Shown here: positions 4,946-36,286 of the stretch, piece by piece
How the letters are laid out: each line of letters opens with the position of its first letter
Numbering within the stretch: the first letter of the stretch is position 1
Origin: a virus
Virus record (IMG/VR): IMGVR_UViG_3300024308_000007
Coordinates: 1 to 62,857 of that record
Reading direction: 5' to 3' (one strand)
Length of the DNA: 62,857 bases
The notes under the pieces: model-generated
The model's input: only the letters and a program-made list of their open reading frames with translations
The model's database searches: none
Told to the model about the DNA's origin: nothing
Translations under genes and position numbers: made by a program

Positions 4946-5519
4946 AGAGGGGCTTACCGAATCCCTTGGCCACCGAACGATCGGGGTCGTCTTCGGCGAG
5001 ATCCCATACCGTCTGTTCGCGCGCTTTCGCAAACTCGTCCATGGCCAGACTGTCCCCGAACGCTTTAACCGCGAACTGTTCCACCATCCGGATGGCCTCT
5101 TCCTTCCCTGACAGGTGGTCGGGGTCATCCATCTGATAGAGATACGCGGCATACGCGCCCAATGCTTTGCCGGTCATCAACCATGCACCGTCGGGGTCGG
5201 TGGCGTCGTACAGGCTCTTCTCTGCCGGTTCGAACTCCACGTCGCGGATTTGCGATTGCCCCGGACCGGTGATCCCGCGCACCTTCACCAGTTCTTTCAC
5301 CAGGCGCGCATGTTCTTCCAGTTGGCGATGGACAGGGATGGTGTTGTCGAACACCGCCGTCATCGTTCTCCCGTCCGCCAGGTAGACGTCGAAATGCGCG
5401 CTGTCTTTGTCCGTCGCTGGCCAGAATACTCCGACCGCCCTGACGTCCTGTAAGTCCAGCAGCAGGCCGCCCATGGCGTTTCCGCGCAGGCCGTTCGTGT
5501 TGATGTAGTGCATGGACAT
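4944..5519 (-). CDS. Hypothetical phage protein (191 aa), last gene of minus operon
   Basis: The N-terminal half reads like a small beta-rich domain (LLLDLQDVRAVGVFWPATDK, then DVYLADGRTMTAVFDN). The C-terminal half is helical and acidic, with no catalytic motif I recognise. The start codon overlaps the stop of the upstream gene at 5519, indicating translational coupling. Function unknown. Confidence 0.7.
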   Translation of the reverse strand: MSMHYINTNGLRGNAMGGLLLDLQDVRAVGVFWPATDKDSAHFDVYLADGRTMTAVFDNTIPVHRQLEEHARLVKELVKVRGITGPGQSQIRDVEFEPAEKSLYDATDPDGAWLMTGKALGAYAAYLYQMDDPDHLSGKEEAIRMVEQFAVKAFGDSLAMDEFAKAREQTVWDLAEDDPDRSVAKGFGKPL

Positions 5520-6571
5520 TAGATGTCCTCCTCAAAGCTGTCAGGACGGGAATTGCGCTCGGCTTCCAGTTCCAGGTGCATCACTGCAGCGCACGAATAA
5601 ACGATGGCGCCAAGGATCTCTTTGACGTCCTGGCCATACGGCAGGCCGGTACACTCTTCCAGCTTTTTGGATGCCTGGCCGAGCAGGAAGCCGGTACCGA
5701 ATTTATCCGCCAGTTGCATCAACGGCTGCTTGGCGAACGGCTTGTTGTTGGCGTGGCGCTCTTTCCCTTTACCGCGCGCTGCCTGGTCATACGCCAGAGC
5801 CAGGACGTGGAAGAGGTCGTCGTATCCCGGCACCGTGCGTATCCAGTGCAGCTTACCTTCGAACAGTTCGTCTTTCAGGCGGCTAATGAACTGGTCGGGG
5901 ACGTTCCGGCCATGGGTCTGCGTATAGAATCCGGTGTTCGGCTTTTTCGTGCCTGCCCGCGGCATCTCCGGAACCGGCGGCGGGGCTTCGTCCCATGGCA
6001 GCGGCGGCAGGCTGTTACGGAACAGCAACGGGGTGATCTCCCATCCGCGCGCTTTGATGAACATGAGGAAGTTCGACGCGTCCGCCATGTGGCCTTTCAG
6101 GATGTTCTTGAACGCCAGTTCTAATGCGTCTTTCACTCTAAAGGATTCATCATCCCATCGCATGAAGTCGAGATCCCCGCCGCGCTTCTCGCCCTGCAGC
6201 AGACCGCCGAACATCAAGTCGATGTGGACTTTGAACACTTCCTGCAGGTGGACAGGTATGCCGCTCAGGTCGATTTCGAACACGTTCGGGTTAGGCTTGG
6301 GTACCGGAGCAGGAGGGAAGTATCCACACAATGCCAGTTGTTCTTTCAACTTATTGTGGAAACGGCTTTCCGGCTTGCCGAGGACGTATTTTACCTCTGC
6401 GGCGAACTGTTCCGGAGTCGGATTCGAATTTGGGCGGCAATCTGACACACGTTCTGGCGCGACCTTTTCGAACCCTGTTTTTTGCAGAACTTTTATCAGT
6501 TCGTTCAGTTCACGGTCGCCGCCGTTACGGGCCAGCACGTCTTCCACCCAACGTACATTTCTCATGCTCAT
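5519..6571 (-). CDS. Hypothetical phage protein (350 aa) with acidic C-terminus
   Basis: Mostly helical, with a proline-rich linker (PLPWDEAPPPVPEMPRAG, about residues 188-205) between two domains. The central helix HMADASNFLMFIKARG faintly recalls the His/Asp helices of all-alpha nucleotide pyrophosphohydrolases, but the paired EExxE/ExxD motif is absent, so I do not assign that family. It ends RPDSFEEDI, one of the acidic C-terminal tails shared by many proteins here. Confidence 0.65.
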   Translation of the reverse strand: MSMRNVRWVEDVLARNGGDRELNELIKVLQKTGFEKVAPERVSDCRPNSNPTPEQFAAEVKYVLGKPESRFHNKLKEQLALCGYFPPAPVPKPNPNVFEIDLSGIPVHLQEVFKVHIDLMFGGLLQGEKRGGDLDFMRWDDESFRVKDALELAFKNILKGHMADASNFLMFIKARGWEITPLLFRNSLPPLPWDEAPPPVPEMPRAGTKKPNTGFYTQTHGRNVPDQFISRLKDELFEGKLHWIRTVPGYDDLFHVLALAYDQAARGKGKERHANNKPFAKQPLMQLADKFGTGFLLGQASKKLEECTGLPYGQDVKEILGAIVYSCAAVMHLELEAERNSRPDSFEEDI

Positions 6572-6573
6572 GA

Positions 6574-7443
6574 TTAACCTTCCAGTGCGTAGTTTTCGTC
6601 GCCCGCTTCGTCAGCGGAGATGGTGTTTGTGGCGGCCGTCAGTGTGTGGCCATGGAGTTCGCAGAACATTTTAAAGTCAACTTCTGCGGCGTCTTTCTCT
6701 TCCTGAGTTTTCGCGTTGATATAGTTCACGTAGAGGTGCATAGCCTGGTTGCAGTCTTCGACGCTGCTGAAATGCAACTTGGCAGGGTCGAACGCATACA
6801 GGTTTCCTGTTTCATCGTTGAACATGAAGTACGGGAACACCTCGTCGTGAACCTGGTACTGCCAGATTCCATCGCCGACCGGCTCCCACATCTGCCAGTC
6901 CTGATTGCGCTTCACCTCGGCGCGCTGCTGCTGGTTGGTCGACAACTGCAGGATGACGCGGAGGGTGCGGCCGCCGATCATGCGCGACACCTTCTTCTGG
7001 TGCTTATTGCGGGCGCGGTGCAGGTGTTCGGCTTCCTCTTTCACCCCATCCATTGTGCGGCCGCCCACGCGGCGTTTGTACTCCATGGCGCGCTGGTTGG
7101 TGAACTCGCGCATGATGTTATTGCTATGCACCTGGTAGTTGAAGATCAGGTCGCCGATTACTGTGGCGCCGCGGTTAGACGGGGCCGGCAGCACACGTCT
7201 TTTCGGCATTTCTTTCACGTACCCGCCGGTGCGGAAGTGCATGTTCTTCTGGCGCTTCTTCGCGTCGACCTTCTCGTTCCAGTCGTCTCGGTCAGCGGCG
7301 GCCATTAATTCCTGGCGAGCGTCTTCGCGGGACTTCTTGCCGTATGGCGCTGCCAGTGCCGGAGATTTACCGATAGAACGGCCGCCGGACAGTCCTAACA
7401 TAGTTGCCATGACAGCCATGGATTTCATGCCTAACGTTCTCAT
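6574..7443 (-). CDS. Hypothetical phage protein (289 aa)
   Basis: First gene after the promoter at 7479-7508, with a good ribosome-binding site (AAGGA, 8 bases before the ATG). The N-terminus (MKSMAVMATMLGLSGG) is mildly hydrophobic but is not a convincing signal peptide. The middle is strongly basic (residues about 45-165, many K/R and Q), which suggests nucleic acid contact, and the C-terminal third is acidic. No known domain recognised. Confidence 0.65.
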   Translation of the reverse strand: MRTLGMKSMAVMATMLGLSGGRSIGKSPALAAPYGKKSREDARQELMAAADRDDWNEKVDAKKRQKNMHFRTGGYVKEMPKRRVLPAPSNRGATVIGDLIFNYQVHSNNIMREFTNQRAMEYKRRVGGRTMDGVKEEAEHLHRARNKHQKKVSRMIGGRTLRVILQLSTNQQQRAEVKRNQDWQMWEPVGDGIWQYQVHDEVFPYFMFNDETGNLYAFDPAKLHFSSVEDCNQAMHLYVNYINAKTQEEKDAAEVDFKMFCELHGHTLTAATNTISADEAGDENYALEG

Positions 7444-7478
7444 TTGTTCGTCCTTAGTGACGTGTTGAAGTTAATGAC

Positions 7479-7508
7479 AAAATACACCACCGTTGATTCG
7501 CATGTCAA
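7479..7508 (-). promoter_or_regulatory. Sigma70-type promoter, TTGACATGC class
   Basis: On the minus strand TTGACA (7503-7508) and TATTTT (7479-7484) are 18 bp apart. The spacer contains CGGTGGTGT immediately before the -10. The same words in the same positions recur at 10396-10425. It drives the gene at 7443 and those downstream of it. Confidence 0.75.
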
Positions 7509-7521
7509 CGAGTTTTCAGGA

Positions 7522-7549
7522 AATAAAAAATCCGGCTCGAAAGCCGGAT
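7522..7549 (-). terminator. Rho-independent terminator after the Dam-type methylase gene
   Basis: Read on the minus strand, TCCGGCT-TTCG-AGCCGGA (7531-7548) is followed by TTTTTTATTT. It separates the transcript ending with the methylase (stop at 7574) from the promoter for 7443. Confidence 0.85.
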
Positions 7550-10425: not shown

Positions 10426-10435
10426 CACGTTTTAC

Positions 10436-10474: not shown

Positions 10475-10906
10475 CTATCCACCAATGTCTGTCATCGTTT
10501 GTATCGCTAACACTAACTCTCGCCTGGTATTCATATTAATAGTTATTAACGATTCAAATGTCAAATCATCCTTTGTCCTATAGTAATTTTCGCCGTGCGT
10601 GTTCTCACCGCCGTAGGCGTCCTTCAACCGGTTGAACTCTTCCAGCCGGAGGACGATACAGCCGTGGTGGCGCGGCTGCATTTTCAGGACTTCCGTCAGC
10701 GGGTCGCAGAAGACAATGAACTGGTCGGGCTTATGGAACAGCACGACGGCTTCGAACTCCTTGTCCCACCAGATTTCCGTCTTTTCGTCCGGCTTGTGGA
10801 CGGTTTCAATGATCACGCCGGTGCGCCAGTTCCGCCAGTGCTTATACACCGCGCTGCGGGATGACGCGGCTGGTACGTGGAACCGGTCAGAGCTTATCGT
10901 CTTCAT
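10475..10906 (-). CDS. Hypothetical phage protein (143 aa)
   Basis: A basic, aromatic N-terminus (YKHWRNWRTGVIIETVHK) leads into a beta-rich middle (AVVLFHKPDQFIVFCD). No family recognised. Its start lies 20 bases inside the previous gene. Confidence 0.6.
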   Translation of the reverse strand: MKTISSDRFHVPAASSRSAVYKHWRNWRTGVIIETVHKPDEKTEIWWDKEFEAVVLFHKPDQFIVFCDPLTEVLKMQPRHHGCIVLRLEEFNRLKDAYGGENTHGENYYRTKDDLTFESLITINMNTRRELVLAIQTMTDIGG

Positions 10907-11120
10907 CGTCGTTTTTCTCCCGCCAGACGCGGACGCCCGCCTGCCCCTGGTATATCTCGTCGTTCTCTACGCGGTGGATGGAAATCTTCACGCCCGCCCG
11001 CCGCGCTACCTGCCGCAAAAAGTACACGTCCTTCGGCTGCTTGCCCTCCACGAAGAAGGAATGGCCGACCTCCATGTCGGCGAGCATTTTGCGGTAATTG
11101 TCGTATTTAGCTTTTGCCAT
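10887..11120 (-). CDS. Hypothetical small protein (77 aa) with acidic tail
   Basis: Pattern MLADMEVGHSFFVEGKQP...FLRQVARRAGVKISIHRVE resembles small phage DNA-binding-like folds in which a short beta hairpin is followed by a helix, but no named family fits. It ends EKNDDEDDKL, one of the shared acidic C-terminal tails. The start has GGGGCGG upstream. Confidence 0.65.
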   Translation of the reverse strand: MAKAKYDNYRKMLADMEVGHSFFVEGKQPKDVYFLRQVARRAGVKISIHRVENDEIYQGQAGVRVWREKNDDEDDKL

Positions 11121-11129: not shown

Positions 11130-12335
11130 TTAAAGCTGATCGTCCTCGTCGATTTCCTCTTCCCCGACGATTTCCTCTTCGCCCACCTTGCCGGTACCGT
11201 CACCCTCTTCGCGCTGGTGGTCAGGCGAGTAGTGCGCCGACAGGTCTTCCAGGCAGGCAATCATGTCGCCCAGGACGTCCGTCAGCAGGTACATATAGGC
11301 GTGGAAGTCCAGCGCCGCGCTATCGTCTTCCACGCTACCGCGCTCGGCGACCAGCACGTCGGAGATTTTCACGCCGGAGAACACGCCCTTCGCGTTGAGC
11401 TTGAACGTGGTGTAGCCCATCGGGTTGTCGATCGGGGACTTCTGCCAGAAGCGCATGGACATGTTGTCCACTTCGTAGTCCTGGTCCAGCGCCTCTTTCA
11501 CCAGCGGGTCGTGGTCACCGTCGCTGTCGCGCAGGATCTGGTCCTTAAACGAGTACGCCGAGCCGCCGGACATCTTGTCGACCAGCTTGGCCGAGGTGTA
11601 CGGCACAAACGTCGACCACGGCTTGTCGCTGTCATCGTTTTTCAGGATGCGCGTCAGCAGCCATTTCACCGGCAGGGTCAGGTCGTTCTCAAACGGGTAG
11701 ATGGGGAACGAGCCGAACGCGCGGCGGAACAGCGCGGCGTTGCAGTCCTCAACGACCTTGTGGCTGCTGATGAAGTAGAACACGTCGTAGATCGCGGGGT
11801 CGTTCACCGAGCGCTGGAACAGGACGGGGATGTGGCGGGTACGCACCAGCGCTTTCGCCAGCAGGCGCGCGGCCACCACATCTTTGATTTCCGCCCACTG
11901 CTTACGGTTCAGCGGTTCGCCCTGACGCTTGGCCAGCTTGTCGCCCTCTTTCTGGACTTCCGCGCGCAGCGTGTCTCCTGGCAGGATGCGTTCGCGGCGC
12001 TCCAGGATAGCGAAGATCTGGCCGTTGTCGAGCGCATGGAACACGGTGTCAGCGGGGTCGAAGTCGCTGTCGTCTTCCCATTCGATTTCGATGAACGGCA
12101 GGGCGTCCATGATGCGGGCAAAGCCGTATTTCAGCCATGCGGACGAGGCGGGGTCTTCGGCATACAGTGTGCCGCCGGACTCGGATGCCTCTTTCACCTG
12201 CAGGTTCATCGCGCGGGCGACCTCTTCTGCAGAGTGGCCCGACCAAAGGTGTTTCAGGGGGTACGCGTCGCCCACCATGGATTTTTCCAGGCGCATGACG
12301 TTAAACCCTTTGAGCTTGTTAGCGTAGGTAGCCAT
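11130..12335 (-). CDS. RdgC-like recombination-associated protein
   Basis: 401 residues. The segment LNRKQWAEIKDVVAARLLAK...VRTRHIPVLF followed by YDVFYFISSHKVVEDCNAALFRRAFGSFPIYP follows the RdgC pattern (a 'K-E/L-K' helix, a conserved short strand, then 'lre.lGslPv.p'). RdgC is a ring-shaped dsDNA-binding protein that limits RecA activity; phage versions are common. The very acidic tail (EEEIVGEEEIDEDDQL) is not typical of bacterial RdgC and matches tails on the phage replication proteins. The fit is by eye and moderate. Confidence 0.6.
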   Translation of the reverse strand: MATYANKLKGFNVMRLEKSMVGDAYPLKHLWSGHSAEEVARAMNLQVKEASESGGTLYAEDPASSAWLKYGFARIMDALPFIEIEWEDDSDFDPADTVFHALDNGQIFAILERRERILPGDTLRAEVQKEGDKLAKRQGEPLNRKQWAEIKDVVAARLLAKALVRTRHIPVLFQRSVNDPAIYDVFYFISSHKVVEDCNAALFRRAFGSFPIYPFENDLTLPVKWLLTRILKNDDSDKPWSTFVPYTSAKLVDKMSGGSAYSFKDQILRDSDGDHDPLVKEALDQDYEVDNMSMRFWQKSPIDNPMGYTTFKLNAKGVFSGVKISDVLVAERGSVEDDSAALDFHAYMYLLTDVLGDMIACLEDLSAHYSPDHQREEGDGTGKVGEEEIVGEEEIDEDDQL

Positions 12336-13502: not shown

Positions 13503-13775
13503 CTAAAGTTCTTCGTTCTCTGTCCACTCAACATCCCAACCGTCTTCGTATGCCTGTTTGTAGCGCTCCCAGGAAACGCGCTCTACCAGCGGGTCGCGGG
13601 CGTGGAGTTGTTCGAACTGCGCCCACGACGTCAGGATGCCGCCGCAATCGCATTCGTGATAGAGCCAGTAGCCGTAGAATGGCTGAATCCCGCAACCACA
13701 CCAGGACAGGTCTGCGTCGCCGTAGAACCAGCCGGTGCCGTCGCAGGTGCGGCAGGTTTCTTCGTTCTCTTCCAC
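13503..13775 (-). CDS. Small zinc-ribbon-like protein (90 aa)
   Basis: Starts with GTG at 13775 immediately after the upstream TGA (TGAGTG), so it is coupled. Residues 8-30 hold CRTCDGTGWFYGD...CGCGI, a DnaJ-type zinc-ribbon pattern, and CDCGG follows near residue 42. The rest is acidic and aromatic. Probably a small zinc-binding adaptor; function unknown. Confidence 0.65.
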   Translation of the reverse strand: MEENEETCRTCDGTGWFYGDADLSWCGCGIQPFYGYWLYHECDCGGILTSWAQFEQLHARDPLVERVSWERYKQAYEDGWDVEWTENEEL

Positions 13776-13940: not shown

Positions 13941-14166
13941 AGGGTTTCTCCACGTACAGTTTCACCGCGTACTGCCGCACCTTCCTGGCGATGTGGAGGT
14001 GGCGGCGGCGCAGTCTGTTCAGGTACCGGCGCGTCGGGTGTTCCTGCGGGATCTCCCAGCGGTCGGCGTGTCCCAGGGCATCGTCAATCTCGTTGGCCAG
14101 CTTTTCGTGCGCTACGATGATGGCCGCCAGACGGGCAACGCGCTGGCCTTTCTGATAAAAGTTCAT
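13915..14166 (-). CDS. Hypothetical small basic protein (83 aa)
   Basis: Helical, with an Arg-rich centre (YLNRLRRRHLHIARKVRQYA). Starts within the ATGA overlap with the previous small gene. Function unknown. Confidence 0.6.
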   Translation of the reverse strand: MNFYQKGQRVARLAAIIVAHEKLANEIDDALGHADRWEIPQEHPTRRYLNRLRRRHLHIARKVRQYAVKLYVEKPYGQKTEAS

Positions 14167-14333
14167 ATCAGGTCTTCCTCAAATGCCGCCGCCGATCCTA
14201 GCAATTCATCTATGACAGGCCAGCGCCACGTACTTACTTCGGTGGCTTCGGGGTGCTGGACGGAAATGTCGGCAAGAATTTGCGCCGCTTCGCGTAACAA
14301 TTCGACCGTTTGTTGCAGTTCTTTTTGGTTCAT
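14163..14333 (-). CDS. Small protein (56 aa) with acidic C-terminal tail
   Basis: The ATG at 14333 overlaps the TGA/TAA of the reading frame that overprints dcm (stop 14330-14332, ATGA-type). The product begins MNQKELQQTVELLREAAQIL, a helix, and ends AAFEEDLI, one of the shared acidic tails. It ends in a 4-base overlap with the next gene. Function unknown. Confidence 0.65.
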   Translation of the reverse strand: MNQKELQQTVELLREAAQILADISVQHPEATEVSTWRWPVIDELLGSAAAFEEDLI

Positions 14334-15331
14334 AGCAGATCATCCTCATTAATTCCGGCCAGCTTGGCCATTGCGGGGCCAATACTACCCGTACCCCAGT
14401 CCAGGACTTCATCGTCAAAGTCGGCTGTCTCCGATGGCGAGGATAAACGCGCGGATGAACTCGGCAGCGAGCGCGGGGATGATGGCGTTCCCGTAGCCTT
14501 TAAGTCGGATGTTCTTGTTAGCGCGAGCCAGGCGTAATATTTCGGACTTTCCCTGTCCCACGATTTCGGAAAACCCATTAACCAGCGGGGCAAGGCCGGG
14601 TTCAATTGGCCGCCACTTACCATCCCCGCCGCATACCCAGTCAACAACTCCCCAAGGCATGTAATGCGCAGCATGGTCGTCCTGAATCCCTGTTCCGCCG
14701 CGAAGTCGATGCGATCCCACGTCCTGTCCTTCCCGTCTTTCCGGATGACGGTCGGCCCCGATCCCTTCACGTCCGATGCCGTTGGCGTCGGCCAGGCTGC
14801 GTAATACATCGTGAGTTGCTCGCCAAGGTTCCCAGGGCTGAGTGACGTCCGGCCACTCTTCAACCTGGCCGCCTGCCGTCTGGCCAAACTGTCCGACGAG
14901 CGTTCCCCAATTTTCGACATCACTGTCGGGGACATCCAGCCGGTGAGCGCCGAACATGATTCGTTCCCTGCGGTGCGGCGCGCCGATGATACCGCCTGGC
15001 AGTACGGCCGATCCCACGGCGTAACCCGCCATTTCCAGTTGATCGTATAAATCGTCGAGCCAATGTTTTTTGATAGCGTTCTCAACCTGTTCGCCAAAGA
15101 TAACTGGAGGGCGACACTCTTTGACGAGTCGGCACCAGGTTGGCGCGAGGTGGCGATCGTCGCTGCGACCTTTTTGTTTTCCGGCCGGACTGAAAGGCTG
15201 GCAGGGAGGACTTCCGGTCCATACGCGAAAGTCATCGGGGAAACCGGCCATTCGTAAGGCGAGCGGCCATCCGCCAATTCCGGCAAAAAAGTGACAGGCG
15301 TTAAAGCCGCGAAGATCGGATGGTTGGACAT
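14330..15331 (-). CDS. Overprinted gene in the alternate frame of dcm (333 aa)
   Basis: This frame lies almost wholly over the cytosine methylase gene but is independently supported. (1) The ATG at 15331 has a strong Shine-Dalgarno GAAGGAG (15340-15346) 8 bases upstream. (2) Its stop overlaps the ATG of the downstream 56-aa gene in the 4-base pattern used throughout this operon, whereas dcm stops 81 bases earlier. (3) The product contains AAWPTPTASDVKGSG and LNPALPRWLMGFPKSW, strings I recall from hypothetical proteins encoded alongside phage C5 methylases. (4) It ends GINEDDLL, the shared acidic tail. The function is unknown; dedicated partners of methylases are one option. Confidence 0.7.
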   Translation of the reverse strand: MSNHPIFAALTPVTFLPELADGRSPYEWPVSPMTFAYGPEVLPASLSVRPENKKVAATIATSRQPGADSSKSVALQLSLANRLRTLSKNIGSTIYTINWKWRVTPWDRPYCQAVSSARRTAGNESCSALTGWMSPTVMSKIGERSSDSLARRQAARLKSGRTSLSPGNLGEQLTMYYAAWPTPTASDVKGSGPTVIRKDGKDRTWDRIDFAAEQGFRTTMLRITCLGELLTGYAAGMVSGGQLNPALPRWLMGFPKSWDRESPKYYAWLALTRTSDLKATGTPSSPRSLPSSSARLSSPSETADFDDEVLDWGTGSIGPAMAKLAGINEDDLL

Positions 15332-15440
15332 CGACAATACTCCTTCGGTCGACCACGCCGTCTGGCAGGTCACCGGATAAAATTAAGTTCTCCAGCCAGT
15401 CGGCCGCGTTGTTATCGAATTCGTTGTAGTAGACCGCCAT
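14415..15440 (-). CDS. dcm: C5 cytosine-specific DNA methyltransferase
   Basis: 341 residues from the ATG at 15440, which overlaps the upstream stop. Motif I FFAGIGGWPL (51-60), motif IV SPPCQPFS with catalytic Cys80, motif VI GEQVEN, motif VIII HRRERI and motif X GYGNAIIPALAAEF are all present. It is therefore probably active, transferring a methyl group from SAM to cytosine C5. The target-recognition region lies between about 180 and 300 and gives no site by eye. With the Dam-type enzyme at 7574 it would give broad protection from restriction. Almost the whole gene is also read in another frame (14330-15331). Confidence 0.9.
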   Translation of the reverse strand: MAVYYNEFDNNAADWLENLILSGDLPDGVVDRRSIVDVQPSDLRGFNACHFFAGIGGWPLALRMAGFPDDFRVWTGSPPCQPFSPAGKQKGRSDDRHLAPTWCRLVKECRPPVIFGEQVENAIKKHWLDDLYDQLEMAGYAVGSAVLPGGIIGAPHRRERIMFGAHRLDVPDSDVENWGTLVGQFGQTAGGQVEEWPDVTQPWEPWRATHDVLRSLADANGIGREGIGADRHPERREGQDVGSHRLRGGTGIQDDHAAHYMPWGVVDWVCGGDGKWRPIEPGLAPLVNGFSEIVGQGKSEILRLARANKNIRLKGYGNAIIPALAAEFIRAFILAIGDSRL

Positions 15441-15856
15441 TACGGATTCCTCGGCGGCCGTTTGATACCGCAAAACCGGCAAAACTCGCCCTCTTCGATG
15501 CCCGGTCCCCCGCTTGCTGAGAAGAACCATTCATGGTTGCAGGACTTCGGGAATTCGTGGCCGCGGCAGCGCATCCAGTTGATAGACAGTTCGGGCGTTG
15601 CCTCCTTCTTCCGTTCGAACGGCGGGAATCCGCAAGACAGGCGAAGGGCGGCCGATGCGTCAGCGTCTTCCCACTCCACCTCTGTCGTGAACATGCGATT
15701 CGGGTCAGTCAGTTCGTGCGGGTAACGATACTTCGTCACCTCGTAAATGATGGCCACCTGCAGGATCTGGCGGCCGGTAAACCATTGCGAGCGGAAGCGG
15801 ATGTCTCCGGTCATCCCGACACGCTTGCGGTGCGTCCGTAGTGTTGGCTGGTGCAT
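15440..15856 (-). CDS. Hypothetical protein with C-terminal zinc-ribbon-like motif (138 aa)
   Basis: The N-terminal half is a beta-rich domain (FRSQWFTGRQILQVAIIYEV). The C-terminal part has WMRCRGHEFPKSCNHEWF then EFCRFCGIKRP, i.e. two pairs of Cys/His suited to zinc binding. Its stop overlaps the dcm start. Function unknown. Confidence 0.65.
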   Translation of the reverse strand: MHQPTLRTHRKRVGMTGDIRFRSQWFTGRQILQVAIIYEVTKYRYPHELTDPNRMFTTEVEWEDADASAALRLSCGFPPFERKKEATPELSINWMRCRGHEFPKSCNHEWFFSASGGPGIEEGEFCRFCGIKRPPRNP

Positions 15857-25968: not shown

Positions 25969-28599
25969 TTAAAGGAAGTCGTCTTCGTCGAATTCGTCTT
26001 CCTCCTGTACATTCGCTTCATTGTGTCGGTCGAGCCACGCGCGAATTTCGTCTGCATCTGGCGAACCATCCGGGCGTTCGAAATGCTTCGGTTGTGGTGA
26101 ATAACAGCGTCCCAGTTTTCCGTCCATGCGGACTTTGCCGGAGTGCGTGGAGGCTACGCGGTAGAAACCGGCGGCTTCCATTTTCCTGGAAATAGAACGC
26201 GAATTCGGCGCTTTGAAATTGTCTATTTCGCGCTCCATGTACTCCATCAAAGACGGCATGAAGATGATGTCGCGGCAGACGTTCCGTGTTCGGTTTTCGC
26301 TGACGCAGGTGATCACCGAATCCGTGAAGTCATCCTTCGACAGCGCCATCATTCTTTCGCGCGCCATGGTGTCCATAGGAGCGTGGCCACCCGACGGGTT
26401 AAAGTCTTTGCGGAACTGGTATTCGCTGAACCATTTACGCAGCGCGCCAGCAGACTGGCGGAATGCGCGGTCGAACCGCTTGAAGAAATTCGGCTCGGTT
26501 TTCAGGAACGGCATAAGGTCGCGCTTTTTGTCCTGGAACTGGCTGGCCACCACCAGATAGCGGCGGTCGTTGTCGTCAATTGGCAGCGCTGCAGGGTCGT
26601 TTGTCACCATGATGTAACTGGCGGTGTTGCGGACTTTCAGGCTGTCTTCACGCATACGGCGCACCGAAATAACGGGGTTGGTGATGAACGGCTTGATGTT
26701 GTTCAGCACGTCATAACCATGGCCTACCACGGACACCTCTTCCACGAACTTAACGATGTCCGATTCCGCCCACTTGGTGAAATTGCTCTGCAGGTCGGAG
26801 TTACTTACTTCGCCCACGTTCGCGTCCCCCAGGATGCAGCGGAACATTTCGCGGATGATCGTCTTGCCGGAGCCGGGGCAACCGTGGATGATCAGCGCGT
26901 AGTTGATGCGTTTTCCTGGGTTTTTCACTATCCAGGCGAAATACTCCATCACGTATTCCCGTTCTTTCGGGTCGGGGAACTGAACGAGGAAGAAGTCTTT
27001 CATGATCTGGATGTTTTTCAGGTCGCGCTGCGTGTATTCCTCCGGCATATCGACCATCGTGTCCGGATGGAATGTGTTCAGGAAGATGCGGCCGTTATCT
27101 GCGGAATACGCCAGGTTGTCCGATTCGAAGAAGCGGAAGAACTCAGGCCGGCCCGCACATTCGCGTACTGGTTTCCACTCGCTGTTCGGCGTTTCGCCGT
27201 GCGCCAGCGGGTTATACATCACCCCGTCGACCACCGGCACCTGATAGATGTCCATGGCCAGCTTGGCAGGCGTGGTGTCAGGGTCTTCGTCCACCATGTA
27301 TCGGCGCATGGCAAGATCGAATGCCTGAACGCTACTGGAAGAACCGTTGCGGATGTTCACGAAAAGACCGGTCTGGCGGTTGAAACACCACTGCATCAAC
27401 CACCCTGGCAGGTCGTCCGGGTCGATACGGTATGACAGGTTTTTCTTGATCTCCGCCGGAGACAGCTTACGGCCTACCAGTTCGTTGTATTTGTCGCAGG
27501 CGACTTTCACAACGTCCATGCGCGCCATGCCGAACATCTTCACTTTGCGGAAGTGGCTGGCCGCCTCCATCCATTCGTCGCGGTTGGTGGCGCCGGAGAA
27601 TTTCGGGATCAGGGTTTCTACGGCTTCCGCGCGCTGGCGGTCTTCGATTTCGTTCGCTTCCTGCAGCAGCGAGCGGAAGGAGATCAGGCGCTTTTTATCG
27701 TGCTTGAAACCCTCGTCCCACTTCTTGTCGAAAGCGTCCTGATCGAAGTTGTTGGCCTGCGCCGACCATTTCAGCGCGATGTCGTATGCGCGATCCTGGT
27801 CTTCAACGCCGGTCTGCAATGCTGCGATGACACGAATCCACTGCTGGTAATCTTCCGAGCCTGGCAGCAGCATTACTTTGCGCTCCAGTTCGTCGTAGTC
27901 ACCATCGTACTGGCTGTATGCGTCGGCGGCGCGGTTCACCCAGTCGTCTTCTTCGTACTCTTCGTCGTCGTCATCCCATCCCAGGGTCTGCCCGCGCACG
28001 GCCATGGTGTGATTCCACCCGCGCTTGGCGCATTCGCGGTCGAATTCGGCGATGATGTCGAACGCTTGTGCTTCGGTCAGTTCCGGCAGTTCGTCGTAAT
28101 CCACTGTCGTCGGGTCGCCGTTGGCCACCCATTTATACGGCTTGTTCGTATCAGGGTGGATACCGAAAGCGATGAATTGCTGGCCATCCCCAAGGATCTG
28201 AACTTCGTGTTTCGGAGTATTTTTGTCTTTCGGGTCGCCGTCATGCCAGACCGATTTCATTGTCGGGAAGCGGGCGCCAGAAAGGCGGAACAGCAGCAGG
28301 CGTTTCGGGTCCAGGCCTACGCGAGTCGGCGCGCTGCCATAGACCAGTTCGACATAGTCCGACATGTGCGTGACGAGGTCTTCGTCGCGGATGTCGAGGT
28401 CGACGGCCGGATTTTTGGCGGTAAGGATGCCGGCCCCGCAGTCACCGTGTTGCAGAACCCAGTTTTCCCAGTTTCCTTCGAAATCATTCGTCGTCCAGTT
28501 CTTGAACAACGGCGCTTTCGATTTCCGCCGGATCGGCGTAAAGATGTAGCCATTGACGGCCAGGTCTTCGCCGACTTGATTTAGCGAAGTTTTGGCCAT
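25969..28599 (-). CDS. Prim-Pol / SF3 helicase (bifunctional primase-helicase)
   Basis: 876 residues from the ATG at 28599, which overlaps the upstream TAA (TAATG). N-terminal primase-polymerase domain (residues about 15-200): CGAGILTAKNPAVDLDIRD supplies the D-x-D, and HEVQILGDGQQFIAFG the following motif. A PriCT-2-like segment (DYQQWIRVIAALQTG..DRAYDIALKWS) lies near residue 250. The C-terminal D5/DUF5906-type SF3 helicase has Walker A GCPGSGKT (about residue 570), FVEEVSVVG, and MVTNDPAALPIDDNDRRY as sensor/box VII. It would prime and unwind phage DNA. It ends EEDEFDEDDFL, the shared acidic tail. Confidence 0.85.
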   Translation of the reverse strand: MAKTSLNQVGEDLAVNGYIFTPIRRKSKAPLFKNWTTNDFEGNWENWVLQHGDCGAGILTAKNPAVDLDIRDEDLVTHMSDYVELVYGSAPTRVGLDPKRLLLFRLSGARFPTMKSVWHDGDPKDKNTPKHEVQILGDGQQFIAFGIHPDTNKPYKWVANGDPTTVDYDELPELTEAQAFDIIAEFDRECAKRGWNHTMAVRGQTLGWDDDDEEYEEDDWVNRAADAYSQYDGDYDELERKVMLLPGSEDYQQWIRVIAALQTGVEDQDRAYDIALKWSAQANNFDQDAFDKKWDEGFKHDKKRLISFRSLLQEANEIEDRQRAEAVETLIPKFSGATNRDEWMEAASHFRKVKMFGMARMDVVKVACDKYNELVGRKLSPAEIKKNLSYRIDPDDLPGWLMQWCFNRQTGLFVNIRNGSSSSVQAFDLAMRRYMVDEDPDTTPAKLAMDIYQVPVVDGVMYNPLAHGETPNSEWKPVRECAGRPEFFRFFESDNLAYSADNGRIFLNTFHPDTMVDMPEEYTQRDLKNIQIMKDFFLVQFPDPKEREYVMEYFAWIVKNPGKRINYALIIHGCPGSGKTIIREMFRCILGDANVGEVSNSDLQSNFTKWAESDIVKFVEEVSVVGHGYDVLNNIKPFITNPVISVRRMREDSLKVRNTASYIMVTNDPAALPIDDNDRRYLVVASQFQDKKRDLMPFLKTEPNFFKRFDRAFRQSAGALRKWFSEYQFRKDFNPSGGHAPMDTMARERMMALSKDDFTDSVITCVSENRTRNVCRDIIFMPSLMEYMEREIDNFKAPNSRSISRKMEAAGFYRVASTHSGKVRMDGKLGRCYSPQPKHFERPDGSPDADEIRAWLDRHNEANVQEEDEFDEDDFL

Positions 28600-29153: not shown

Positions 29154-29555
29154 ATGTCTCTCGAACAAGTAATCGCTGAAAACAACTCCCTGCTGCGTGA
29201 ACTGATTGACCTGCAGAAAGCAGGCGTCTCTTCCGCTAAAACCTCCGCTGCGGACACCACTAGCGAAACCAAAACCGAAACCAAGTCCGCTAAGGGCGCG
29301 GCGAAGGGCGGCAAAACCACCACCAAAGCGAAAGCCGAAGTAGTCGATCCGGATACGCTGAAAGCGAAGCTGGTTGAGTACAAAAACCTGACCGACCTGA
29401 AAGCGGCCAAGGCGCTGACCAAAGAACTCGGTTACGACGCGATCGCTGACGTGCCGGAAGAGAAGTCGAAAGAAGTGTTCGACGCTATCGAAGCGGCAAT
29501 CCTGGCGCTGGACAACGGCAATGAAGCCGACACGGATGCCGAAGAAGACCTGTGA
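29154..29555 (+). CDS. Hypothetical replication-operon protein (133 aa), Lys/Ala-rich
   Basis: The ATG at 29154 follows AAGGAATACCG. A helical start (EQVIAENNSLLRELIDLQKA), then a long low-complexity S/T/K/A-rich linker (residues about 28-60), then a compact helical domain (DLKAAKALTKELGYDAIADV), and an acidic tail ending EEDL. A charged adaptor near DNA is plausible; no family recognised. Confidence 0.65.
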   Translation: MSLEQVIAENNSLLRELIDLQKAGVSSAKTSAADTTSETKTETKSAKGAAKGGKTTTKAKAEVVDPDTLKAKLVEYKNLTDLKAAKALTKELGYDAIADVPEEKSKEVFDAIEAAILALDNGNEADTDAEEDL

Positions 29556-30858
29556 TTTAAGTCTGCAGGCCATCTACGAACGATTTGCGGAGGGCGACCA
29601 TTCGATATTCTCGCCCTCCGCATCGTCCAGGTGGATGAATTGTCCCGGTTCGTTGATACCCAATTTATTGGCACCTGACGACACCGGGATTTTTGCTGCC
29701 GAAGGTACGGTGGCGCACGAACTGGCCGAACAATGGCTGACCACTGGCAAAAAACCGAAACACCGGTTGGGCGAGTGGGTCTGGATAGAGAACGGCACCG
29801 ACTGGTTCGAAATCCAGATAACGCGCGGGATGTTCATCTACGTCGAAGAGTACGTCGACATCTGCATGATGACCCCTGGCGAAAAGTTCATAGAAAGCCG
29901 CGTAGACTTTTCGATGTTAACGCCGGTGCCTGGCCAGAAAGGGACACTGGATTTTTGTGCAATCGACGACGACACCCTTTACATCCGCGACCTGAAATAT
30001 GGGAAAGGGGTGAAAGTAGACGCCGTCAAAAACTCGCAGTTGCTGATCTATGCGTATGCGAAGTACATGGAAATCCGTGACTTCTACTACATCAAGCGGA
30101 TCGTAATCTGCATCGTGCAGCCTCGCCTCGACCATGTCGAAGAGTGGGAATGCACACCCGAAGAACTGATGGGCTTCGGTGAACTGGTTAAGCGCAAGGC
30201 AGCGGAAGCGTGGAACCTCAACGCCCCGCTGGTGGCCGGTGTGAAACAGTGTGGTTTCTGCCGAATCCGCCAGACCTGCCCCGCTCGGTTGGCCATGGCA
30301 AGACAGGTGCTTGAACTGCGATTCCCCGAAGACGGGCAATTCCCCATCACGGAAAAGCAGGTTAAAATCCTGAAAGAAGACCTGGACGAGGATTTGTTTT
30401 TCCTCAACTTCCAGCCGCCTATGTCACTGAACAACGCGCAGTTAGCCAGCGTCCTGAAATACCGGACGACAATAGAAAACTGGTTCAAGTCATTGCAGAC
30501 TGAACTGACACGCAGGGCGATGGCGGGCGAAACTATCCCAGGCTACAAACTCGTCGAAGGGCGGTCGTTCCGTAGCTTTGAGGATAAAGAGAAAGCCGAA
30601 AAAGCGCTGCTGGAAGCGGGGCTGACCGAAGAGGACATCTGGAAGGTAGATATAATATCTCCGGCTGTCGCAGAGGAAGCGCTGATGGCAACAGGATTGA
30701 AGCGGAAAGAACTTCCCGCGGTACTCGATCCGATAGTAAAATCGACGAAGGGTGCTGCGACACTGGCGCCACTGACCGATAAACGGCCCGAAATTGGTTC
30801 CGACGTTAGGTCGGCCATGAACGACGAAGACGACGATTACTTTCCGTCACAACGATAA
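29521..30858 (+). CDS. DUF2800 / RecB-Cas4-like PD-(D/E)XK nuclease
   Basis: 445 residues; start overlaps the previous gene by 35 bases. FSPSASSRWMNCPGS with GTVAHELAEQWL opens the fold. GTLDFCAID, YIRDLKYGKG (D-x-K) and NSQLLIYAYAKY supply the PD-(D/E)XK catalytic and Q motifs, and CGFCRIRQTCPA is a Cys cluster like that of Cas4/AddB-type Fe-S nucleases. It probably processes DNA ends in recombination-dependent replication, with the SSB next to it. The end is acidic (MNDEDDDYFPSQR). Confidence 0.8.
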   Translation: MKPTRMPKKTCDLSLQAIYERFAEGDHSIFSPSASSRWMNCPGSLIPNLLAPDDTGIFAAEGTVAHELAEQWLTTGKKPKHRLGEWVWIENGTDWFEIQITRGMFIYVEEYVDICMMTPGEKFIESRVDFSMLTPVPGQKGTLDFCAIDDDTLYIRDLKYGKGVKVDAVKNSQLLIYAYAKYMEIRDFYYIKRIVICIVQPRLDHVEEWECTPEELMGFGELVKRKAAEAWNLNAPLVAGVKQCGFCRIRQTCPARLAMARQVLELRFPEDGQFPITEKQVKILKEDLDEDLFFLNFQPPMSLNNAQLASVLKYRTTIENWFKSLQTELTRRAMAGETIPGYKLVEGRSFRSFEDKEKAEKALLEAGLTEEDIWKVDIISPAVAEEALMATGLKRKELPAVLDPIVKSTKGAATLAPLTDKRPEIGSDVRSAMNDEDDDYFPSQR

Positions 30859-30873: not shown

Positions 30874-31548
30874 ATGGCACGTCAATTAACCGTACTGAAA
30901 AAGTTCCCGAAAGAAGGTATCACTTTCTACAAAGAAGGTTATATCAAGATTTTGGACACCAAACTGTCCTACCCGCATTTCGACAAACCGCAGAAATTCA
31001 CCCGCGACGACGGCACAGAAGTCGAGAAGTACGGTTGTGAAGGTCTGATCGAGTCCACCCGCTTCCAGGAGTCCAAAAAGTTCATGGTCGACATGATTAA
31101 AAAGATCATGGAAGACAAGGACTGCAAATGCTCCAAAGACAAGTGGTTCGTTGTCGAAGGTGATCCGGACATGCGCCCTGAACTGGACGGCATGTACCAG
31201 ATTAAGGCCAGCGAATCCCGTAAGCCGGAATTCCTGTCCGTGGACGGTGACGAAATCGACTCTGTGAAAGAACTGCGCGAGCTTTTCTATCCAGGTTGCC
31301 GCGTTGACCTCATGATTCGCCCATGGGGTCAGAACTACCGCGATGCGAAAAGCGGCACCACGGCAAAACGCGTGAACGCCGGTCTGGTGACCGTGAAGTT
31401 CCGCCGCGACGATACCCGCCTCGGTGAAGAACCTATCGACACCAACGGCGCGTGGGACGATGATGAAGACGACGAATATTTCGAGAAGTCGGCTCCATCG
31501 AAAGGCTCCCGTCAGTCCAGCAACGACGATGACGACGACGCTTTATAA
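30874..31548 (+). CDS. ssb: Single-stranded DNA-binding protein (Enc34 SSB-like)
   Basis: 224 residues. The order and length match the DUF2815/Enc34-type SSB found next to DUF2800 nucleases and Pol in related phages. N-terminal OB-like strands (GITFYKEGYIKILDTKLSYP) follow, with conserved aromatic and basic residues. The C-terminal end is Ser-rich and acidic (SSNDDDDDAL), as in SSBs whose acidic tail binds partner proteins. It would coat ssDNA during replication. Confidence 0.8.
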   Translation: MARQLTVLKKFPKEGITFYKEGYIKILDTKLSYPHFDKPQKFTRDDGTEVEKYGCEGLIESTRFQESKKFMVDMIKKIMEDKDCKCSKDKWFVVEGDPDMRPELDGMYQIKASESRKPEFLSVDGDEIDSVKELRELFYPGCRVDLMIRPWGQNYRDAKSGTTAKRVNAGLVTVKFRRDDTRLGEEPIDTNGAWDDDEDDEYFEKSAPSKGSRQSSNDDDDDAL

Positions 31549-31602: not shown

Positions 31603-33807
31603 ATGATTGTCGGCGAAATGACCCTGGAGATAGCGAAGAAACTCGCTGTCCTCTCCGCCAAAAGGCAGGACTACCACAACTGCATGGGCTTGCCGTCCGA
31701 CGTGTACCTCGACTACGAAACGCGCTCGGAAGAAGACCTGAAAAAGTACGGACAAGACCGGTACGCCAACCACCCTAGTACGCACCCGCTAATGGTAACG
31801 TGGTGCGAAATCCGGCCGGACGGCAACCACTGGTTTCACTGGAACGTCGAAATGGGGGAATTCCCACGTCGCTTAATTGCGATTTTTTGCGATCCTAAAG
31901 TCCTGAAACACGCATTCAACGCGCAGTTCGAACGCACCATCACGAAGTTCGCCATGGGCCTGGGGGACAACGTCGGGTACAAAGACTGGCGCTGTACGAT
32001 GGTTCACGCGTACATGATGGGATTCGGCGGTACGCTGGCGCAGATTGGCGCGGCCGTCGGCCTGAAAGAACAGGCCAAACTGGAAATCGGCAAAGACCTG
32101 ATTAAGTTCTTCTCCATTCCGGTGCCGGAGCGCCAGCGCAAAACCGTGGGCGGCATGTTCCGCGACCCCGCCAACTATCCCGAAGAGTGGTTCGCGTACT
32201 GCGTCTACAACATCATGGACGTGGCGGCCGAGATGGCCATCGCCGCGCGCATCGATCAGCCGGATAAGTACCCGATTCCGCCGTCAGAATGGGCGACCTA
32301 CGCCATCGACCAGGAAATCAACGACCGCGGGGTGCCGATCGACCTGCGCATGGCCGAAAACGCCATTATCCTGAAAGACCGCCGGAAGGAAGAACTGGTG
32401 GCCGAACTGCGCCAGATCACCGGACTGGCCAACCCGAACTCCACGGCGCAATTGCTGCCATGGCTGAAAAAGCGCGGATACCCGTTCCCTGACTGTAAAG
32501 CGGCATCCGTTAAGACGGCGCTCAACCGCTTCTCCCACAAGATGACGGAAGATTGCATCGTCGTCCTGAAAAAGCGTAAGTGGGCGGCGTCCACCAGCCA
32601 CGGAAAATACACGACAATTGCCAACGCCTCCCGAGCTGGACGTTTTCGCTATGCGTTCCAGATGGCGGGCGCGCAGCGCACACAACGTTGGGCCGGTCGT
32701 AAGGTGCAGGCGCAGAACCTCCCGCGCACACCTAAGTGTCTGGAGCCGAAAGACGGCGACATCCGGAAGCTGAACATCACCACCGAGATCATCCGAAAAG
32801 GCCGGTACGACGAACTGTCGCTGTGGATGAAAGAGCCAATGGAAGCCATCGTCGGCTGCATCCGCTCCACCTTCCGCGCCGAGGAAGACCACGAATTCCG
32901 CGTGTGTGACCTGGCGTCGATTGAATCGGTGGTGATCGGCTGGCTGGCCGACTGTAAGTGGTTCCAGGAAGTGCTGTCGAACGGCCGCGACATCTACAAA
33001 TCGTTCGCTATGCACCTGTACGACAAGGCTTACGACGAGGTGACGAAAGCCGAGCGATCCATGGCCAAACCGGCGACCCTCGGATGCGGCTACCGCCTCG
33101 GCGGCGGCGAAGAAACCGAGACGTTCACCCGTACCGGTCTGTGGGGATACGCGGAGAACATGGGCGTCAACATGACGAAGGAAGAGGCGGCCGAACACGT
33201 TAAGGTGTTCCGTGAACTCTGCCCTGAAATCGTCGACCTGTGGTTCGATCTGGAGCAGGCAGCGTTTAAGTGCCTCAAGACTAAGCAGCCGGTACAGTGC
33301 GGGCGGGTGACCTTCGAATACCGCAAGCCGTTCCTGGCGATTCGCCTGCCGTCTGGCCGCCGCCTGTGGTACTTCGACCCGAAAGTGCTGCCGGTAACTC
33401 GCAAGTTCAAGAATAAATACACTGAGTCGTACACGGTTAACGGGAAGACAGCCACCCGCGAAATCGTGAAGGAAGAGTCGTACACCAAATACCAGTTGTC
33501 GTACATGGGGATGGACCAGAAGACCCGTAAGTGGTCGCGTCAGTACACCCACGGCGGAAAACTGGTGGAAAACATCGTGCAGGCAATCGCCCGCGACGTG
33601 CTGAAAGCTGGCATCATCCGCGCGACCCGCGACGGTTTCCAGATCGTCATGCACATCCACGATGAAATCGTATGTCACGAAAAACGTGACGACACCTATC
33701 ACACGCTGTCCCGCCTGCAGGAACACATGACGGCACCGCTGTCGTGGGCGCCCGGTATGCACCTTGGCGGCGCCGGATGGACGGGGCCATTCTATATGAA
33801 GGACTAA
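31603..33807 (+). CDS. Family A DNA polymerase with 3'-5' exonuclease domain
   Basis: 734 residues. An N-terminal DnaQ-type exonuclease begins VYLDYETRSEED (D37, E39); FNAQFERTI and the late aspartate motif (IMDVAAEM) follow. The polymerase part has motif A in CDLASIESVV, motif B region in MAKPATLGCGYRLGG, and motif C MHIHDEIV (HDE at about 686-688), with VENIVQAIARDVL before it. It is the replicative polymerase of the phage. Unlike many family A phage polymerases it is preceded by a terminator. Confidence 0.9.
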   Translation: MIVGEMTLEIAKKLAVLSAKRQDYHNCMGLPSDVYLDYETRSEEDLKKYGQDRYANHPSTHPLMVTWCEIRPDGNHWFHWNVEMGEFPRRLIAIFCDPKVLKHAFNAQFERTITKFAMGLGDNVGYKDWRCTMVHAYMMGFGGTLAQIGAAVGLKEQAKLEIGKDLIKFFSIPVPERQRKTVGGMFRDPANYPEEWFAYCVYNIMDVAAEMAIAARIDQPDKYPIPPSEWATYAIDQEINDRGVPIDLRMAENAIILKDRRKEELVAELRQITGLANPNSTAQLLPWLKKRGYPFPDCKAASVKTALNRFSHKMTEDCIVVLKKRKWAASTSHGKYTTIANASRAGRFRYAFQMAGAQRTQRWAGRKVQAQNLPRTPKCLEPKDGDIRKLNITTEIIRKGRYDELSLWMKEPMEAIVGCIRSTFRAEEDHEFRVCDLASIESVVIGWLADCKWFQEVLSNGRDIYKSFAMHLYDKAYDEVTKAERSMAKPATLGCGYRLGGGEETETFTRTGLWGYAENMGVNMTKEEAAEHVKVFRELCPEIVDLWFDLEQAAFKCLKTKQPVQCGRVTFEYRKPFLAIRLPSGRRLWYFDPKVLPVTRKFKNKYTESYTVNGKTATREIVKEESYTKYQLSYMGMDQKTRKWSRQYTHGGKLVENIVQAIARDVLKAGIIRATRDGFQIVMHIHDEIVCHEKRDDTYHTLSRLQEHMTAPLSWAPGMHLGGAGWTGPFYMKD

Positions 33808-33811
33808 CGAT

Positions 33812-34126
33812 ATGCCGAGAAAAGACCCATTTGCGGTGGCCAGCGCCATCCGCGAGTCGAAAGTCGAAAAGGGGATATGCGAGTTCGCCGAGTATTACGG
33901 CTGGATGCAGTTTAAGGTCGTCAGTCCGGCGTTCAACGGGATGCCAGACCGCGGCTTTGTCAGGAAGACCGGCGACAAAAGCGAGTTCATCCTGGCCGAG
34001 ATTAAGCAACTCGGCAAAAAGCCTACGACGCTGCAGGCCATCCGCGCGCGGGAACTGGCCAAACACGGGGTAGAGGTTCACTGGTTCGACAGCGTGGAGG
34101 CGGCCAAAGATGTATTTCGACGCTAA
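33812..34126 (+). CDS. VRR-NUC domain nuclease
   Basis: 104 residues. ESKVEKGICEFAEYYGW, FNGMPDRGFVRK and FILAEIKQLGKKPTTLQ form the VRR-NUC pattern (E, then GMPDR, then E-x-K). This is the small Holliday-junction or flap-type nuclease common in phages with SNF2-like helicases. It overlaps the helicase start by 17 bases. Confidence 0.85.
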   Translation: MPRKDPFAVASAIRESKVEKGICEFAEYYGWMQFKVVSPAFNGMPDRGFVRKTGDKSEFILAEIKQLGKKPTTLQAIRARELAKHGVEVHWFDSVEAAKDVFRR

Positions 34127-35639
34127 AGCCCGTATCGCCGCTGCTGAACTCAGCGACGCGAACCACCACGACTACCAGAAGGAGGCCATCGACTTCGCCA
34201 TGCGGGTGCCGAAGTGCGCCCTGTGGATGGACTTAGGCCTTGGTAAATCCGGCGTGTCCGGCAAAGTGGTGTCCGAAACGCTGGCCAACCTGGAAATCAA
34301 CCGCTGGCTGATTATCGCCCCGCTGCGCGTATCCCGCGTGACGTGGCCAGAAACGTTCAGCGAGTGGCGCTACCTGGCGGGCATCCAGTACACCGTGCTG
34401 TCGGACGAGCCGGAAACGTCGAAGGAAACCAAGGCGCAGGCCGTCATCCGCCGCTCGCGCACCAGCCGCACGTCTGTCGACATGGTCAACATGGAGATGG
34501 TGCCGACGCTGGTCGACTTCTGGCGGCGCGACTGGCCATACGACGGCGTGATTATCGACGAATCCAGTAAGTTCAAAGACCACAAGTCGCAGCGCTTCAA
34601 AAAGCTGGCGCTGGTCTTCAACTACATCAAACGCATGATCCAGTTGACGGCCACACCGGCATCCGAAGGGTACGAAAGCCTGTTCGCGCAGATCGCCCTG
34701 CTGGACGGCGGCGAACGCCTTGGCAAAGTCATCACCCACTACCGGAACGACTATTTCCAGCAGGACTACTACACCCGCAAATGGAAAATCATCGAGCGGT
34801 TGAAGCCGGAGGTCGACGCGAAGATCGCCGACATCACGCTGGTGATGAAAGCCGAAGAGTACCTTCCGGACCACAAAGAACCGCACTTCGTCGAACACAA
34901 ACTGGAAATGTCGCAGAAGTTCCGTGACATGTACGCGTCCATGGAGAAAGACAGCGTCCTGGAACTGGGCGACGTCGAAATCGTGGCGGACAACGCGGCG
35001 GCCGTGTGGGGCAAACTGCTGCAAATGGCCAGCGGCATGGTGTATGAGACGTGGAAGGAGCCACACCCGAAAATCGAAGGGCGGATGGTGCTGAAACGCC
35101 GGCCCCACCTTCTCCACGACGAAAAGCTGGACGAACTGGAAGAACTGCTGGACCAGCTCGACGGGAAACCGCTGCTGCTGGCCTACCACTGGGAAGAATC
35201 GCTGGAACGCCTGAAAAAGCGCTTCCCCTGGGCTACCATTCTGGACAAGGAAGGGAAGTACAAAAAGGCGTGGGACGCCGGTAAGATCAAGATGCTTATC
35301 GCGCACCCGCAGTCGGCAGCGCACGGCCTGAACCTGCAGAAGCCGACGAACCAGATGTGCTTCTTCGACATCCACCCGTCGCTGGAAAACTTTCTGCAGT
35401 TCATTGGCCGTTTGAACCGCCAGGGGCAGAAAGAAAAAGTCTTCGTTCACCTAATGCTTTCCAAAGGCACGTATGATCTGCGAACATGGGAGGCATTGAA
35501 ACAGAAACAAGACGGCGAACAGGCACTGCTTAATCGCATCCGGTACTTGCAGCGCAAGATGCGCGAGGCAATCCGGAAAGAGCAGGAGTCGACCGCGAGG
35601 GGCGCCATGGCCATGGCCGACGAAGACGACCTGCTGTAA
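34110..35639 (+). CDS. SNF2-like superfamily 2 helicase/ATPase
   Basis: 509 residues. DYQKEAIDFA (Q-type motif), Walker A DLGLGKSG (41-48), DESS motif II (about 150), LTATPASEGYE motif III, and FIGRLNRQGQKEKV motif VI. SNF2-type helicase in the replication operon, probably a branch-migration or replisome-remodelling motor together with the VRR-NUC protein. It ends MADEDDLL, the shared acidic tail. Confidence 0.9.
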   Translation: MYFDAKARIAAAELSDANHHDYQKEAIDFAMRVPKCALWMDLGLGKSGVSGKVVSETLANLEINRWLIIAPLRVSRVTWPETFSEWRYLAGIQYTVLSDEPETSKETKAQAVIRRSRTSRTSVDMVNMEMVPTLVDFWRRDWPYDGVIIDESSKFKDHKSQRFKKLALVFNYIKRMIQLTATPASEGYESLFAQIALLDGGERLGKVITHYRNDYFQQDYYTRKWKIIERLKPEVDAKIADITLVMKAEEYLPDHKEPHFVEHKLEMSQKFRDMYASMEKDSVLELGDVEIVADNAAAVWGKLLQMASGMVYETWKEPHPKIEGRMVLKRRPHLLHDEKLDELEELLDQLDGKPLLLAYHWEESLERLKKRFPWATILDKEGKYKKAWDAGKIKMLIAHPQSAAHGLNLQKPTNQMCFFDIHPSLENFLQFIGRLNRQGQKEKVFVHLMLSKGTYDLRTWEALKQKQDGEQALLNRIRYLQRKMREAIRKEQESTARGAMAMADEDDLL

Positions 35640-35656
35640 TCGCCCATTGCCAAGAC

Positions 35657-35695
35657 AAAGACGTTCGCCGTAAATTATCGGCAACGTCTTTTTTC
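35657..35695 (+). terminator. Terminator between replication and packaging units
   Basis: A 9-bp outer stem AAAGACGTT (35657-35665) / AACGTCTTT (35683-35691) with an inner GCCG/CGGC stem and one bulged C, followed by TTTTCATTTT. The late genes follow. A weak TTGCCA/TAAATT pair (35647/35671) overlaps it and could be a late promoter, but the match is poor. Confidence 0.8.
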
Positions 35696-35710
35696 ATTTT
35701 AAGGACTCCC

Positions 35711-36286
35711 ATGGCAAACAAAGACCTCAAAGAGATCAAGAACGCCGGCCCCGACGAGAAAACGAGGTCGATGATTCATGAGGGGTGTTCAATATCCCAA
35801 CTGGCTGACATCTTCGACCGTGATCGCCGCACGGTGACGAAGTACATTCACGATGCGGGGGTGAAACCTTGTGCGACAAGAAACGGAAATCCCATCTACA
35901 AACTGCGAGACGTCGCTGGCTATCTCTGCGACATCGATCCGGACTTCATCGACCAGCGCATCCGCAACCTGAACCCACAGGATCTTCCGCCGCTGCTGTC
36001 GAAGGAATACTGGAACGGAAAGCGAGCGCGACTGACGTATCTGCGTGAAGAGGGCGACCTGTGGGAGACGTCGCAGATTCAGATGCTGCTGGGCGTGTGG
36101 GTGAAGAACTTCGTCACCGGCGTCCGCCAGGTTCAGGACACCATCGACCGCCGCGAAATCCTGACGGAGACGCAGCGAGAAGCGCTGGTACAGGAGATGG
36201 ACAGCCTGATCAACATGACCCGCGAAACACTGGCCAACGCCATTCAGCGCGCGAAGGATACGGCAGATGAAGACGACCTACTCTAA
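35711..36286 (+). CDS. Terminase small subunit (Nu1-like)
   Basis: 191 residues. The N-terminal winged HTH (ISQLADIFDRDRRTVTKYIH, about residues 28-47) is in the place of lambda Nu1's DNA-binding domain, and a helical C-terminal half would bind the large subunit. It ends TADEDDLL, the shared acidic tail. It recognises packaging DNA and overlaps the large subunit start by 20 bases. Confidence 0.85.
   Translation: MANKDLKEIKNAGPDEKTRSMIHEGCSISQLADIFDRDRRTVTKYIHDAGVKPCATRNGNPIYKLRDVAGYLCDIDPDFIDQRIRNLNPQDLPPLLSKEYWNGKRARLTYLREEGDLWETSQIQMLLGVWVKNFVTGVRQVQDTIDRREILTETQREALVQEMDSLINMTRETLANAIQRAKDTADEDDLL

Follow-up and report, generated by a model that had tools for sequence, protein, structure and literature searches.

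Acidic C-terminal tails that dock one protein on another are known from phage T7 and from bacteria. In T7, docking of the gp2.5 and gp4 tails on the phage DNA polymerase is established; our comparison with this system draws on that background and on the C termini of the T7 proteins, which we inspected. The bacterial single-stranded DNA-binding protein (SSB) also carries a short acidic C-terminal peptide with a hydrophobic end, DDDIPF, for protein docking. Recognition of the PDZ type offers a more general likeness, in that the ligands end in V, I, L, or F and a pocket receives the last side chain. Here we analyze a 62,857-base stretch of phage DNA (the window), an IMG/VR virus record of a Casjensviridae phage, in which about ten unrelated proteins, among them the primase-helicase, the SSB, and the small terminase subunit (TerS), end in a common tail. 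We call such a tail a tag and the form that it takes in a given genome its code.

As in T7, the SSB (of the same structural type) and the primase-helicase of one phage both have an acidic tail that ends in a hydrophobic residue. T7 has two tailed proteins, whereas the phages studied here have about 8 to 15, including terminase, nucleases, and an RdgC-like protein; moreover, the receptor here is apparently not the polymerase, and the code varies by lineage. The bacterial arrangement is one tailed protein with many partners, in contrast to some ten proteins with one tail. The Enc34 ORF6 SSB is an orthologue of the window SSB, and 16 of its 29 C-terminal residues are acidic (PMC5686142); the passages of that report consulted here treat the SSB tail alone and mention no such tail on other phage proteins. 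Acidic docking tails are known, and those of T7 are shared by two proteins, but our literature search, with most subscription journals outside it, found no shared tail on unrelated phage proteins and no set of about ten proteins that extends from replication to packaging and switches its code together.

Excess of C-terminal tails in the window and related phages

The Casjensviridae core (primase, SSB, helicase, terminase, and structural genes) is present in the window. The same genes occur in Erwinia phage pEp_SNUABM_08 (Gwanakrovirus), whose primase shares 89% identity with the window's, and the tree described below agrees with this placement. Genes of the window were called by a simple coding-bias method, giving 71 proteins whose C termini are independent of the choice of start. 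A protein was scored as tailed by acidity if its last residue is L, I, F, V, or M and at least three of its final six residues are acidic. Ten of the 71 proteins pass, whereas the rate at internal positions in these proteins predicts 0.35. A measure free of acidity, the number of protein pairs with at least three of the last four residues identical, gives 19 pairs in the window versus a mean of 2.1 and a maximum of 8 at internal positions.

For comparison, 23 further related genomes were used first and 12 more were added later; these 35 relatives and Roseophage RDJL3 make up the 36 genomes of the group. Tails occur on 273 of 2451 proteins in the group (11.1%) versus 22 of 988 (2.2%) in a contrast set of 18 phages (14 from IMG/VR whose polymerase module is related, plus T7, lambda, N4, and Mu), and p-values for these totals overstate independence because homologous proteins entered as separate cases. 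Each tail listed in a first-pass annotation of this DNA was found where it had been placed, and most of them are kept in close relatives. Neither of the two results that the first-pass annotation named as counting against its idea, a frequency no higher than in other phages and a lack of conservation in relatives, was obtained. The observation is thus confirmed and is larger than first noted.

Tails switch together within each lineage

The same orthogroups are tagged across the family, and the tail varies by lineage and agrees inside each genome. The code is DDEV in phages Chi, Enc34, Soft, Redjac, and SAP012 and DDEI in the two Aeromonas phages A18P4 and BUCT551. UF_RH7, MA12, and Smarc1 have DDEL or DDDL, EDDxL is the code of the window's genus, and the group of Nazgul, Carli, and IMG09982 uses GL or GGL (GGL in IMG09982). 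Nazgul appears untailed by the acidity test, yet ten of its proteins end in GL, including the SSB, exonuclease, primase, helicase, and DUF7443 protein. Outside the family, the primase and TerS of RDJL3 end in DPLA and its SSB in DPTA, and its IMG/VR relatives (L276-L284) have DPLA or DPTA ends on the primase, the SSB, and two further proteins. Acidity, by which the tails had originally been recognized, is therefore not their defining property, given ends such as DPAAGL in Nazgul and those of RDJL3.

The last residue is identical in 290 of 372 same-genome pairs, compared with 122.9±8.7 when last residues are permuted inside each orthogroup, and 0 of 20,000 such shuffles reach 290. When the V clade is cut to one member, 218 of 272 pairs match versus 113.5±7.3. 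In a tree built from the large terminase subunit (TerL), portal, and capsid proteins, Enc34, Chi, Soft, Redjac, and SAP012 form one clade in which nearly all tails end in V, and the all-I pair A18P4 and BUCT551 is nested within all-L phages. Because the last residue switches jointly in eight to nine proteins, the idea of the first-pass annotation that the tails are a common docking tag for one hub is well supported; neither of the hubs that it suggested, the polymerase and a host protein, fares as well (see below). Synonymous codons vary between tails and broadly match genome usage, and copying of a DNA segment is therefore excluded; this variation argues for selection on the tail peptide.

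Tags are also strongly biased by function: of 138 cases in DNA-handling families, 102 are tagged, compared with 1 of 406 in structural families. Most genera have about 8 to 15 tagged proteins per genome. In the DUF7609, 77-amino-acid (p77), and exonuclease families, the tag was acquired as an extension. Lineage-private genes carry the local code as well; examples are the genes of Nazgul for a RusA-like resolvase and a ParB-like protein, one of IMG09982 whose product is also ParB-like, and TerS of RDJL3.

A putative C-terminal address

We infer that the tails serve as a C-terminal address for recruitment, read by a single co-evolving receptor encoded by the phage, and on the sequence evidence we give this reading a probability of about 0.68. 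The address would be common to proteins of priming, single-strand binding, DNA unwinding by helicase, and recombination, to a methylase-associated open reading frame (ORF), and to TerS. A pocket of the receptor for the terminal side chain would read the last residue together with the usually acidic lead-in. Receptor and tags of each lineage would co-evolve, such that the whole set changes code at once, and newly joining proteins would gain the tag by a short extension of their C terminus. This would probably concentrate the tagged enzymes on SSB-coated phage DNA and pass that DNA on from replication to packaging. A wider version, to which we would give slightly less than even odds, is a genome-wide address code, unlike the docking in T7 or by bacterial SSB tails, in which nearly all DNA-transaction proteins form one assembly for replication, recombination, and packaging, joiners must take the current code, and the arrangement recurs with another code in RDJL3 and its relatives.

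A shared lineage-coded tag would list the phage proteins of one assembly, many of them without known function, and would lead one to expect a shared site at which the terminase meets the replication proteins. It would also offer a clean natural system for a co-evolving peptide and receptor, one that includes Chi, a long-studied model phage.

Several points weigh against the single-receptor address. Sanovirus and Salvovirus have few tags, and the genomes of Kokobel1, IMG34110, and JC01 are mixed in code. A scan of alignment columns for positions that separate V or I from L phages found the candidate receptors no richer in them than the portal or capsid protein. More than one receptor may also be involved.

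The candidates for the receptor are the SSB core, the SNF2-like helicase, the DUF2800 exonuclease, the primase, and TerL. If the RDJL3 system is homologous, the receptor would be among the few proteins that RDJL3 and Casjensviridae have in common, namely, the primase, exonuclease, SSB, polymerase, SNF2 helicase, and terminase. Docking of the SSB and SNF2 helicase tails in cis on their own proteins was rejected, as AlphaFold models leave the tails exposed or disordered: the SSB tail is predicted to be disordered, and the SNF2 helicase tag is exposed and modeled with low confidence. In crystals, the C-terminal segments of the Enc34 SSB and three relatives pack against neighboring molecules, although the last 11 residues of the Enc34 SSB are disordered (PMC5686142).

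Alternative explanations

In a T7-like scheme, basic patches of the phage DNA polymerase would receive the tags, as they receive the tails of T7 gp2.5 and gp4, both of which end in DF. Most of these phages have a family A DNA polymerase (PolA), which, as had been remarked for the window, lacks the tail itself and is tagged in no orthologue. However, in phiAxp2, JS26, and FoX4 the PolA locus is occupied by a family B polymerase (PolB; phrog_1252), and these phages keep tails on the primase, SSB, TerS, and RdgC. Because these three phages swapped PolA for PolB and kept the tags, the polymerase is unlikely as a required receptor, and we know of no precedent for a terminase subunit docking on a polymerase; we consider the T7-like scheme improbable. 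Only a little less probable is the proposal that each tail acts on its own, as an electrostatic or DNA-mimic element that limits nonspecific DNA binding, with no common receptor. Acidic tails of T7-type SSBs curb DNA binding, and most tagged families bind DNA; in keeping with this, deletion of the Enc34 SSB tail was reported to give binding of double-stranded DNA (PMC5686142). Such a role leaves unexplained both the weakly acidic tags and the joint switching of an uncharged last residue (V, I, L, GL, or DPLA), which a co-evolving receptor would account for.

Mimicry of a host ligand such as the bacterial SSB tail, with docking on a host protein, or service as a signal for a host protease has a still smaller chance of being correct. 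Bacterial SSB tails are indeed acidic with a hydrophobic end, and SAP012 (record positions 54712-55086) and R16L (40244-40657) each encode one protein that ends in the host-type DDDIPF. In the same genome, though, DDDIPF sits beside a different phage code. That the code tracks phage lineage and not host makes a host receptor unlikely: a single code serves the close relatives UF_RH7 (Pseudomonas), Smarc1 (Serratia), and MA12 (Pectobacterium), whereas the two Providencia stuartii phages Redjac and Kokobel1 differ. The least credible explanation is that the tails merely reflect nucleotide signals, above all the ribosome-binding site of the next gene. Acidic codons reading GAGGAGG or GAGGA do lie just before the next start in the genes for the 350- and 56-amino-acid proteins and the ORF overprinted on the dcm methylase gene, but the primase, SSB, SNF2, and 133-amino-acid genes have no start close downstream, and tail codons are freely synonymous and roughly follow genome usage. 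This origin is refuted for most members and fits only the 350- and 56-amino-acid proteins and possibly the overprinted ORF.

Apart from this comparison, the DDDIPF-ending proteins of SAP012 and R16L are possible host-directed docking proteins.

Tagged and untagged proteins of the window

Nine proteins are tailed in all four close relatives of the window: the primase, 133-amino-acid protein, SSB, SNF2 helicase, TerS, RdgC-like protein, 77-amino-acid protein, DUF7443 protein, and 90-amino-acid protein (Table 1). The primase tail reads DEDDAL, DEDDML, or DDDDML in these relatives and DDEDEV in Chi. The one SSB orthologue without an acidic tail, that of Nazgul, ends in GGL. The tag of the 133-amino-acid protein is retained in relatives and in its equivalents from other genera, and untagged orthologues of the 77-amino-acid protein stop without the extension. 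Tagged DUF7443 proteins each follow the code of their own genome (...SGL in Nazgul).

Table 1. Positions and C termini of tagged, doubtful, and untagged proteins in the window
Protein	Positions	Strand	C terminus	Assignment or remark	Orthologues tagged
350-amino-acid protein (doubtful)	5519..6571	-	FEEDI		
77-amino-acid protein	10887..11120	-	DEDDKL	phrog_7200	11/20
RdgC-like protein	11130..12335	-	DEDDQL	PF04381	21/21
90-amino-acid protein	13503..13775	-	TENEEL		7/7
56-amino-acid ORF (doubtful)	14163..14333	-	FEEDLI		
ORF overprinted on dcm methylase gene	14330..15373	-	NEDDLL	Mte8-like ORF known in other phages	
Primase-helicase	25969..28599	-	DEDDFL (codons 25972-25989)	phrog_1156, E 4.9e-107	17/24
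133-amino-acid small protein	29154..29555	+	DAEEDL	phrog_7721; upstream of exonuclease	
DUF2800 exonuclease (untagged in window)	29710..30858	+		PF10926 / phrog_69	11/24
T7-type SSB (Enc34 family)	30874..31548	+	DDDDDAL	PF10991 / phrog_112	23/24
PolA (untagged)	31603..33807	+	FYMKD	phrog_17, PF00476	0/21
SNF2-like helicase	34110..35639	+	DEDDLL	phrog_62, PF00176	12/24
TerS	35711..36286	+	DEDDLL	phrog_141	18/21
TerL (untagged)	36267..38345	+		Name from sister phage annotation	0/25
DUF7443 protein	43264..43644	+	GEEGDL	PF24227; directly after major capsid gene	20/24

The membership proposed by the first-pass annotation stands for most proteins and is weak for two. In the 350-amino-acid protein, the FEEDI codons include GAGGAGG, a strong ribosome-binding site of the next gene, and the end varies in relatives, with poor conservation. 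For the 56-amino-acid ORF, no counterpart was found in the relatives examined, and its FEEDLI codons overlap a possible ribosome-binding site. The tail codons of the dcm-overprinted ORF could likewise double as a ribosome-binding site, yet its EDDLL end is kept in three relatives: in the window and the three relatives in which the stop is reached, the ORF ends in NEDDLL, CEDDLL, or SEDDLL, and a fourth close relative has SEDALL in the alignment. VRR-NUC, like TerL and PolA, is tagged in no genome compared.

The dcm gene (14415-15530, minus strand) is overlapped on the same strand by this long ORF, whose conservation across the four close relatives is about 90%. The ORF matches one annotated as Mte8-like in other phages, and the window copy has a longer end than the copies in its relatives. 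DUF7443 is the sole family of the structural block with a tag; its gene directly follows the capsid gene, in the position of lambda FI, and one relative appears to have an HeH-like segment, as judged by eye. A second C-terminal motif, WDD(D/E), is present in the SSB, exonuclease, and SNF2 helicase of Chi, Enc34, Soft, Redjac, Saba, and Kokobel1, sometimes lacking the terminal aliphatic residue.
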